Assembly: GCA_037039925.1 (NCBI GenBank) | Contig: JAXRKP010000114.1 | Coordinates: forward strand, 105,001-169,000 | From: Doris montereyensis | Lineage: Eukaryota; Mollusca; Gastropoda; Nudibranchia; Dorididae | Reading direction: 5' to 3' | Length of the DNA stretch: 64,000 nucleotides | Shown here: one piece after another, positions 50,901 through 53,900 of the stretch | Position numbering within the stretch: the first letter of the stretch is position 1 | Layout: the number at the start of each line of letters is the position of its first letter | Position numbers and translations under genes: made by a program | Notes under the pieces: generated by a model | Told to the model about the DNA's origin: nothing | Databases searched by the model: none | The model's input: the letters and a program-made list of their open reading frames with translations, nothing else

Positions 50901-53900
50901 CAAGGAATACAGATCAACCAGTAAGAATAATAAATAATTCAAATGAGATAACTGAAGATAGGTTTCACAACGGATGAAATCCAAACAGCTATGCAAAATA
51001 TTATACTAGGAAAGGCCCCAGGAGCAGATCAAATTTATTCAGAAATGATTAAAAACCAAAGTAGAGAAGCAGACAAATTACTGCATGCAATATGCCAACA
51101 AACATGGAAGTCCAAACAGGTGCCAGACGACTAGAAAAGGGAAACAGTAATATCAATACACAAGAAAAGGATCAACTATGGAATGCTCAACCATAGAGGG
51201 ATATCACTACTAGCGTTCAGGGAGAAAAAGTGTATGCCAGGATACTGGAAATGAGACTGGGAAAAGAGTAGAGGATCAAATTGAAGAACATCAGAGCTGA
51301 TTCAGACCAGGGAGAAGTGCATAGGACCACATATTTACAATTAGACACATAATGGAAACATTTCTGGAAAGAAATATTGACTTGCACCTCTGTTTTGGCT
51401 GACTTAGAAAAAGGCATTTGACACTGAGTGAAGGACAAACTATGACATTGTTTAAAAGAACGTAAGTAGAACAAAATTTAATAGAAGCTTTTAAAAGTTT
51501 TTGTAATAAACCAACGTGTGCATGAAGTAGCTGGAAACGTATCTATGAAGAATTTGACGATGTCAGAGTAAGACAGGGTTGTATCCTTAGTCCTCTTTTG
51601 TTTATCACATTTATGGATTTAATCGCAAAGGCACCATTAAAAATGAAGAAAATGAATGTAGGTATGTGGAAATTCAACAATGCTTTCATTTGTTGATGAT
51701 TTAAACTCTATTTGGAAAATCAAAAATGGACCTCTGTTATAACATCAACAAGCTGAATAATGAACTAAATTTTTGATTGATGTAATTTGATTTACTCACA
51801 TCCACAACTAAGGTGATCTCGAGGGTTTTCGGTAGGATTTATAATTTTTGCCCGCACTGCCCTATAAAACAGCCAAGGGATCTTTAGCGTGCACAGAGTG
51901 TTGTGATCTGCACCGGGGACCTCCTTTTTATTGCCTGTCTCCGATGGGACTAGTTGTCGATCCACCTACCTTGCCCAGGGGGGTAGATTTTGCTCGAGAG
52001 AAAAACACGGGAAAATTTTCCAACCGTTGGCGGGGCTCAAACTTAGTACCTTTTAGTTGAGAGGCCGACAATTTGCTTCTGGACTGCCAATCCCCTATGA
52101 ACTAGATAAAAGAGGAGTGCATGTGAATGCAAAGAAAACAAGAACACTGCTAATAACTAGGAAGCTAAAGCACAGAACCTTAAACTAGACAGAGAGAAGT
52201 TAAAACAAGTTCAAAACTACAATTACCTAGGAGTAATGATTAATTCAGAGGTGAAACTAAGAGAAGCAAATGAGCCAGAGAATCCAAAAGGCAATGCCAA
52301 TGTATAACCATCTAGGAAAGACATTTATAGATAAACAAGAATTGTCAACAAAAGCCAAAATGGCAAAATACAACACTGTTTATTGTCCTACTCTCTTCTA
52401 CAGCAGTGAAACCTGGATCTTAGACAGTAGGGAATTTGTTTAAAGACTAGTCAGTCATTCATTTATTGAAGTAATTTAAACAAACTCCTGCCTGTTGCTA
52501 TCTTGTTTTACAGAATGATAAAGACAGCCTCCAATCTTATTTCACCAAGATGAATTTTCTTGCACACAATCTGGTGCATATGGACGCGACAAGTGCAACC
52601 AATGACAATCTGCTGTCTTTTGTGCCAAAAAAAAATCACAGGTAAGTGTAGTACAAATAGTGACAATCTGCTGTCTTTTGTGCCAAAAAAATCACAGGTA
52701 AGTGTAGTACAAATAGTGACAATCTGCTGTCTTTTGTGCCAAAAAATCACAGGTAAGTGTAGTACAAATAGTGACAATCTGCTGTCTTTTGTGCCAAAAA
52801 ATCACAGGTAAGTGTAGTACAAATAGTGACAATCTGCTGTCTTTTGTGCCAAAAAATCACAGGTAAGTGTAGTACAAATAGTGACAATCTGCTGTCTTTT
52901 GTGCCAAAAAATGACAGGTAAGTATAGTACAAATAGTGACAATCTGCTATCTTTTGTGCCAAAAATCACAGGTAAGTGTAGTACAAATAGTGACAATCTG
53001 CTGTCTTTTGTGCCAAAAAAATCACAGGTAAGTATAGTACAAATAGTGACAATCTGCTGTCTTTTGTGCCAAAAAAATCACAGGTAAGTATAGTACAAAT
53101 AGTGACAATCTGCTGTCTTTTGTGCCAAAAAATCACAGGTAAGTGTAGTACAAATAGTGACAATCTGCTGTCTTTTGTGCCAAAAAATCACAGGTAAGTG
53201 TAGTACAAATAGTGACAATCTGCTGTCTTTTGTGCCAAAAAATCACAAGTAAGTGTGTACCAAAAAAAATCACAAGTAAGTGTAGTACAAGTAGTGACAA
53301 TCTGCTGTCTTTTGTGCCAAAAAATCACAGGTAAGTGTAGTAGTAGTGACAATCTGCTGTCTTTGTGCCAAAAAATAGTGACAATCAATCTGCTGTCTTT
53401 TGTGCCAAAAAATCACAGGTAAGTGTATTGCAGATAATGTGACAAATAGTGTGAATCTGATGTCTTTTGTGCCAAAAATGGCAGGTAAGTGTAGTGCAAA
53501 TAGTGTGAATCTGATGTATTGTTCCAAGTAGTCACAGGTAAACGTAGTGCAAATAGTGACAATCTGTTGTTTGTTGTCAAATCACAGGTAAGTGTAGACC
53601 AAACAGCGAAATTTGCTGTCTTCTGTGCGAAATAGTCAAATATAATCATAGTCCAAATAGTGATGAACTGTTGTCTTTTGTGCCAAATAGTCACAGGTAA
53701 GTGAAGTGCAAATAAGGACAATCAGTTTTTTTGTACCAAATAGTCACATATAATTGTAGTGAAAATAGTGATTATCTGCTGCCTTTTGTGCTAAATAATC
53801 ACAAGGAACCTTTTATGGTTTGATTCATCTTATTCACATTCATATATGTCTTTTGAACTTTTTCTCCCTGTTGTTATTGTTATTCGTGCTAGAAAGCATC

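Follow-up and report, generated by a model that had tools for sequence, protein, structure and literature searches.

Which 5′ splice site does a cell use when the end of a coding exon, together with its donor, stands repeated many times in tandem? The question is raised by a gene on the plus strand of a 64,000-nt stretch of nudibranch DNA (the window throughout), in which a 55-bp minisatellite starts inside an exon and runs into the following intron (Table 1). A first-pass annotation had named the host gene PIK3C2, and the name holds: the gene is a gastropod PIK3C2 (class II phosphoinositide 3-kinase), and its exons lie collinear in tblastn with molluscan PIK3C2 proteins, in the domain order of PIK3C2, which we take from the precomputed Pfam entries of those proteins to be RBD, C2, PIK helical, kinase, PX, and C2. 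Furthermore, a peptide joined from the array-bearing exon and the exon after it matches PIK3C2 alpha (7bi2) with an E value of 1.2e-9 in phmmer, and it matches molluscan PIK3C2 proteins as well. The first exon (4418 to 5943) was placed by its open frame alone, and a further C2 match lies outside the window (C158:170444-170635). The array-bearing exon follows the acceptor TTTTACAG at 52513 and is flanked by introns of 3,852 and 1,304 nt; we keep for it the earlier reader's label, exon 27, which corresponds to rank 22 in our hand-made list. In a maximum-likelihood tree of 19 rows, the gene groups with the heterobranchs Elysia, Bulinus, and Biomphalaria (support 100/96), and the best proteins among the matches listed, a comparison that includes no sister species, are 51 to 53% identical to it.

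Table 1. Coordinates of the array, its host gene, and related loci
Feature	Location	Strand	Basis or status
PIK3C2 gene	4418..60366	+	28 exons, hand-made list; majority backed by protein similarity
PIK3C2 exon ("exon 27"), 128 nt, NDKDSLQ...FVPKKNH + AG	52514..52641	+	tblastn with molluscan PIK3C2, phmmer, in silico splicing
55-bp minisatellite, ~23 copies	52603..53803	+	TRF, wrap-around alignment
First CAG|GTAAGT, sole donor keeping the message open	52639..52647	+	motif scan, in silico splicing
15 later exact CAG|GTAAGT and 3 near sites	52695..53702	+	motif scan, in silico splicing
Older, degenerate copies, units 17-23, 71-89% to consensus	53450..53803	+	wrap-around alignment
Next exon ("exon 28"), start of PX region	53946..54021	+	acceptor CTCCATAG at 53945; tblastn
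Apparent one-base deletions in otherwise conserved PIK3C2 exons	window: 22980-22995, 35790, 39990-40000, 48640-48650, 55229, 58680		by eye
Second PIK3C2 gene	G000:C3068:108430-151301 (L052, L053, L056, L058-L060, L062, L063)		better conserved
Exon-end array, end of ABCC/MRP nucleotide-binding domain, SKLTILPQ	L026 (C660)		firm; MRP1 6e-20, Pfam ABC_tran 5e-8
Exon-end array, cadherin exon end	L037 (C2841)		firm; 2e-6, Pfam hits below cut-off
Candidate exon-end array, end of DOCK C2 domain, LVSTVYTQ	L044 (C3468)		weaker; Pfam 3.4e-4, below curated cut-off; DOCK8 0.07
Candidate exon-end array, PDZ domain exon end	L042 (C3356)		weaker; Pfam 0.003, below cut-off; second match 0.005

The repeated unit consists of the final 38 to 39 bases of the exon and the initial 17 bases of the intron. 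TRF reports a period of 55, 11.9 copies, and 97% matches over 52603 to 53260, with degenerate copies on to 53803, and a wrap-around alignment resolves 23 units and a stub, with units 12, 13, and 15 partial. The units stand head to tail, near identical and within the range of about 10 to 100 bp by which a minisatellite is recognized. On aligned columns, with gaps and insertions left uncounted, units 1 to 16 match the consensus at 94 to 100% (the first eleven at 96 to 100%) and units 17 to 23 at 71 to 89%. Identity thus falls with distance from the exon (Spearman −0.77), which indicates that the copies beside the exon are young and the distant ones old. A dispersed repeat was considered and rejected, as part of the array, used as a query against the 513-Mb assembly with the best candidates scored and very common words skipped, gave nine matches, every one inside the array itself. 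A structured RNA was likewise rejected, with no Rfam family reaching the gathering threshold between 52400 and 54100.

All 16 exact copies of CAGGTAAGT (CAG|GTAAGT) in the window lie on the plus strand within the array, and none occurs elsewhere on either strand, against an expectation of 0.48 from 100 shuffles. The exact donor is present in 16 of about 23 units, which makes this an array of AGGT units with donor strength; its score of 12.8 exceeds those of the other 14 placed PIK3C2 donors. Three near sites have their last exon base at 53248, 53275, and 53537, and the looser pattern CA[AG]GTAA matches 19 sites. The repeat therefore reaches across the end of a coding exon and reiterates a consensus 5′ splice site, and TRF, the wrap-around alignment, and the donor counts all agree with the first-pass description of a minisatellite that multiplies both, in which the count of about 17 near-perfect donors was a fair one. 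The last codon of the exon (AG|C, Ser) is split after its second base, the third coming from the next exon. In silico splicing from any of the 18 later donor-like sites leads the frame into AGG TAA at the first donor, and the protein ends in ...KKNHR-stop, the stop starting one base past donor 1. Hence, two further claims proved correct, namely that the first donor alone keeps the frame and that the PX and C2 domains are lost if a later one is used. The stop is, however, generic, since any phase-2 exon end at AG|GTAAG gives the same reading, and it is therefore not a sign of design. The lengths of A runs, such as the nine A's of the exon copy, are unsafe, given six apparent one-base deletions elsewhere in the gene.

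We propose that a neutral minisatellite was seeded on the exon-intron border, that the first donor is the one in use, and that the array is tolerated rather than useful; we regard this as probable. A tandem duplication would have caught the final 38 exon bases together with the first 17 bases of the following intron, and slippage or unequal exchange would then have expanded it to about 23 copies, the youngest and nearly identical ones lying beside the exon. The true exon end would be recognized jointly with the 3′ splice site on the other side of the 128-nt exon, and it would also be transcribed first, so that the first donor would be used almost always, whereas the later perfect donors would sit in the intron, leave with it, and stay silent. 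Of this course of events, the sequence, the copies, the donors, the frame, and the age gradient are seen directly. A precedent for the choice of donor comes from transfected minigenes that carried a pair of identical, equally strong CAG/guaagu donors (against 16 exact donors in the array), had flanking introns of 365 nt, and were spliced at the upstream donor exclusively; in human database pairs whose donors are nearly equal in strength, 60% of events favored the upstream one, and long flanking introns promote its use (PMC9225289). Furthermore, a nascent 5′ splice site is reported to stay with RNA polymerase II via U1 (PMC8316553), and such tethering would help the first donor. From the outcome of the minigenes, the length of both flanking introns, and the tethering, we infer that splicing takes donor 1 and that the other donors stay silent. 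The earlier suggestion that the cell faces a hard choice among identical donors finds no support in a setting where exon definition is expected and where, in the minigenes, splicing went to the upstream donor alone (PMC9225289). A risk lies at the other end of the array, where 249 nt separate the last strong donor from the next acceptor; this distance is at the edge of intron definition, and some splicing might go to that donor. Folding that hides the later donors was rejected as an explanation: the probability that the donor 9-mer is unpaired is low at all 16 sites (0.004 to 0.091; 0.034 at donor 1), and predicted accessibility does not favor donor 1.

Donor arrays are common across the genome and show no excess over a control. 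Three exact donors spaced by 30 to 60 bases gave 100 + 58 genome matches, against 249 + 141 for the reversed motif, and a narrower search that required C, G, or T behind each of the first two donors gave 35 + 45 against 213 + 74; these are counts of overlapping matches rather than of arrays, taken from the matches listed, and a long array weighs heavily in them. At least 26 arrays exist besides the one in PIK3C2, 26 being those fetched from among the matches listed, in which arrays with A after the donor extend up to contig C950. Two of these start firmly on the end of an exon (ABCC and cadherin), and two more do so by weaker matches (DOCK and PDZ). The PIK3C2 array would be one of several such arrays on exon ends in a genome rich in minisatellites. 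Downstream of the ABCC array follows a later ABC motif, GQRQLLCLARALL, and downstream of the cadherin array follow more cadherin motifs; the DOCK8 alignment (0.07) reaches the very end of its exon, and within the next 10 kb no further exon was recognized by motif at either the DOCK or the PDZ locus. Another array, L023 (C177), may belong to a gene for an NRF-6 type acyltransferase by resemblance, with nothing or only chance-level matches returned by Pfam and NCBIfam. In five arrays (L024, L027, L031, L039, and L041) a frame is open but matches no protein credibly, two (L036 and L046) were left out of the protein searches, three (L021, L029, and L038) have N upstream, and in the remaining 11 no long frame runs into the first donor. 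Exact CAGGTAAGT sites are frequently genuine donors, and exon ends among such arrays are therefore not in themselves an enrichment. In the six exon-end arrays, with PIK3C2 and L023 counted in, the native frame stays open as far as a later CAGGTAAG in 0 of 15, 0 of 9, 0 of 13, 0 of 8, 0 of 9, and 0 of 8 cases, with phases assigned from the open frames.

The array might also be free to grow because the window PIK3C2 is a recent pseudogene, the splicing of which hardly matters. We consider this possible but on balance unlikely; it overlaps with the reading of a tolerated minisatellite, and the probabilities of the several readings do not sum to one. Six exons, as judged by eye, carry an apparent one-base deletion, against none over some 470 codons aligned for a second PIK3C2 gene; this gene is better conserved, its kinase exon being 80% identical to that of Gigantopelta, compared to 66% for the window copy. 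The branch of the window gene is long (1.31, where end branches have a median of 0.47, with its columns 43% filled). The window gene is a divergent paralogue and may be decaying, but the six deletions may reflect either recent decay or base errors of the assembly, and all six read as deletions, as such errors might. Moreover, just two of the six lesions lie inside the portion compared with the second gene, which itself carries an in-frame TAG in a helical-domain exon, and the two copies differ at codon positions 1, 2, and 3 by 0.26, 0.16, and 0.53 (365 codons), a pattern that points to constraint on the window copy for most of its history, until lately. The counterpart of exon 27 in the second gene was not found in the joined stretch, which holds 5,000 N. 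More PIK3C2-like matches are found on C3119 (two, kinase-like) and on C1409 (one, helical-domain). The first-pass annotation had picked up neither this second gene, nor the likeness of each unit to an acceptor, nor the arrays at exon ends elsewhere. Base-level errors are possible in this assembly, and the array as a whole might be an artefact of it; this is extremely unlikely, since the copies grade from young to old, the units differ in length, and units 6, 8, and 9 have a substitution in common, all of which is unlike duplicated reads, and similar arrays are present on many contigs.

Other readings would give the array a function. It had been suggested that it may act as a U1 snRNP sink or as a regulator, and all 16 exact sites indeed match U1 fully, with duplex energies of −12.9 to −13.2, against a median of −5.8 for the 15 placed donors of the gene, donor 1 included. 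However, an abundant snRNP cannot be titrated by one locus of 16 sites. In addition, the donor columns of units 16 to 23 show no extra conservation (80.6% against 80.2% for the other columns, among array copies only), 28 of 55 circular blocks scoring as well or better; they decay like the rest, with no sign in these units of selection on the donors. Together with the lack of an excess of three-donor arrays over the reversed control, this leaves a sink or another selected role unsupported, and to a U1 sink or local telescripting element we give next to no credence. A regulated or allele-length-dependent poison isoform, in which the mRNA that stops at KKNHR would be degraded or would encode a kinase without PX and C2, at a dose tuned by array length or U1 supply, would agree with the identical truncated end obtained from all 18 later sites. 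It is nevertheless very unlikely, because the donors of the old units are not conserved above the other columns, such arrays are not in excess, the stop is a generic consequence of phase 2 at GTAAG, and in all six exon-end arrays the native frame closes before any later CAGGTAAG is reached. It is also imaginable that CACAG|GTAAGT serves as donor and acceptor, with units excised from one another or the intron removed stepwise; the message would then be identical in any order, and wrong donor choices would heal themselves. Each unit does have a pyrimidine stretch (the codons for LLSFV) and CACAG ahead of the GT, and in silico, the exact native mRNA returns at 16 of 18 sites when the stretch from donor 1 through a later unit's AG is cut out, as follows by construction where the AG is kept; the outcome would be no different if a wrong donor had already been spliced to the next exon. 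In a simple PWM with approximate frequencies, the 16 exact sites have a median acceptor score of 3.2, at the 82nd percentile of 4,111 window AGs outside the array, but 18 of the 19 placed PIK3C2 acceptors (median, 9.3) score above 3.2 and one below, and a run of A's occupies the expected position of the pyrimidines. Furthermore, one unit of 55 nt is at or under the usual size of an intron. The medians of the other exon-end arrays range from 0.1 (L023) and 2.3 (PDZ) over 4.9 (DOCK) to 6.1 (ABCC) and 6.7 (cadherin), and the property is not a general one. The ABCC and cadherin values are such as real acceptors reach, with 3 to 4 of the 19 placed ones in PIK3C2 scoring below them, and this favors dual use at those two loci. 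UBC is reported to splice among tandem AGGT sites with a 3′ splice site MaxEnt score of −0.21 (PMC10809524). For the PIK3C2 array we rate dual use as improbable. An extension of it, according to which exon-end minisatellites are a recurrent class in the genome and their CAG|GTAAGT units, each able to be donor or acceptor, form "confluent" introns, where any order of splicing gives one mRNA, growth is free of cost, and introns may be seeded, is put forward tentatively and seems to us improbable too.

The preferred reading, a tolerated minisatellite with the first donor in use, can be set beside known systems, among them the minisatellite of IFI6, which has a repeat unit of 12 bp. Two downstream units of IFI6 serve as donors and give rise to three mRNA species (PMC4526556); this work on donor minisatellites is cited in PMC2572611 and PMC4526556. 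The likeness lies in the use, potential in PIK3C2, of minisatellite units as tandem donors for a single exon, whereas the PIK3C2 unit measures 55 bp and none of its later donors leaves an open message. UBC and VCX3A likewise have AGGT-bearing tandem units that could be donor and acceptor, with intron lengths in whole units, but in UBC these are in-frame coding monomers of 228 nt with observed splicing (PMC10809524), whereas the PIK3C2 units, with 38 bases of exon in each, have lengths that are for the most part not divisible by 3 and putative acceptors that score weakly. Recursive splicing at zero-length exons shares the intronic core (Y)nNCAG|GTAAGT, but the recursive sites are conserved and lie in long introns (PMC5126111), whereas those of PIK3C2 are many, young, and within a 1.3-kb intron. 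In intron gain by tandem duplication, a duplication across an intron-exon border also copies splice signals; there, the 3′ end of the intron was copied and a new intron arose (PMC4974935), whereas in PIK3C2 the donor was copied many times. Beyond IFI6 and UBC/VCX3A, no report of exon-end donor arrays was found among titles and the openings of abstracts. As far as these searches reach, the length of the series, the young copies beside the exon, and the recurrence in one genome are new. The 16 identical perfect donors and the parallel genes are natural experiments on the choice of the spliceosome among equal 5′ splice sites, where the minigenes described in PMC9225289 carried two donors. The exon-end arrays also offer a graded series for the idea (PMC10809524) that repeats with built-in splice signals are tolerated in genes and may yield introns.

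Minisatellites are frequent in the gene region, where we hand-picked 15 arrays from the TRF table, with overlapping rows merged and the short or simple rows 551-1287, 1635-1719, 22231-22260, and 59560-59587 left out. Only the 55-bp array overlaps an exon (1 of 15, against 5.2 under random placement, P = 0.005, with an exon list that is partly approximate), which suggests that arrays on exons are usually removed and that this one was tolerated. In windows chosen post hoc and with the 55-bp array among the 15 counted, 5 have their start within −50 to +100 nt of an exon end (1.1 expected, P = 0.0016; 1.5 under a null with exon avoidance, P = 0.014) and 3 within −50 to +60 nt (0.8 expected, P = 0.042; 1.2 with exon avoidance, P = 0.10). 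No array out of 15 ends close ahead of an exon start, against 0.8 to 1.1 expected (gene region 4418 to 60366). One of the region's minisatellites, with a 22-bp unit and 27 copies (18956 to 19543), starts at the second intron base past the donor ATG|GTATGC at 18954, and the GT of this donor is absent from its later copies. Putative pieces of reverse-transcriptase-like frames, non-LTR by appearance, are located at 49355-52440, 56790-58590, and 61190-63940, in introns and past the last exon found. Upstream of the PIK3C2 gene, an AG dinucleotide run extends over 737 bp (551 to 1287).
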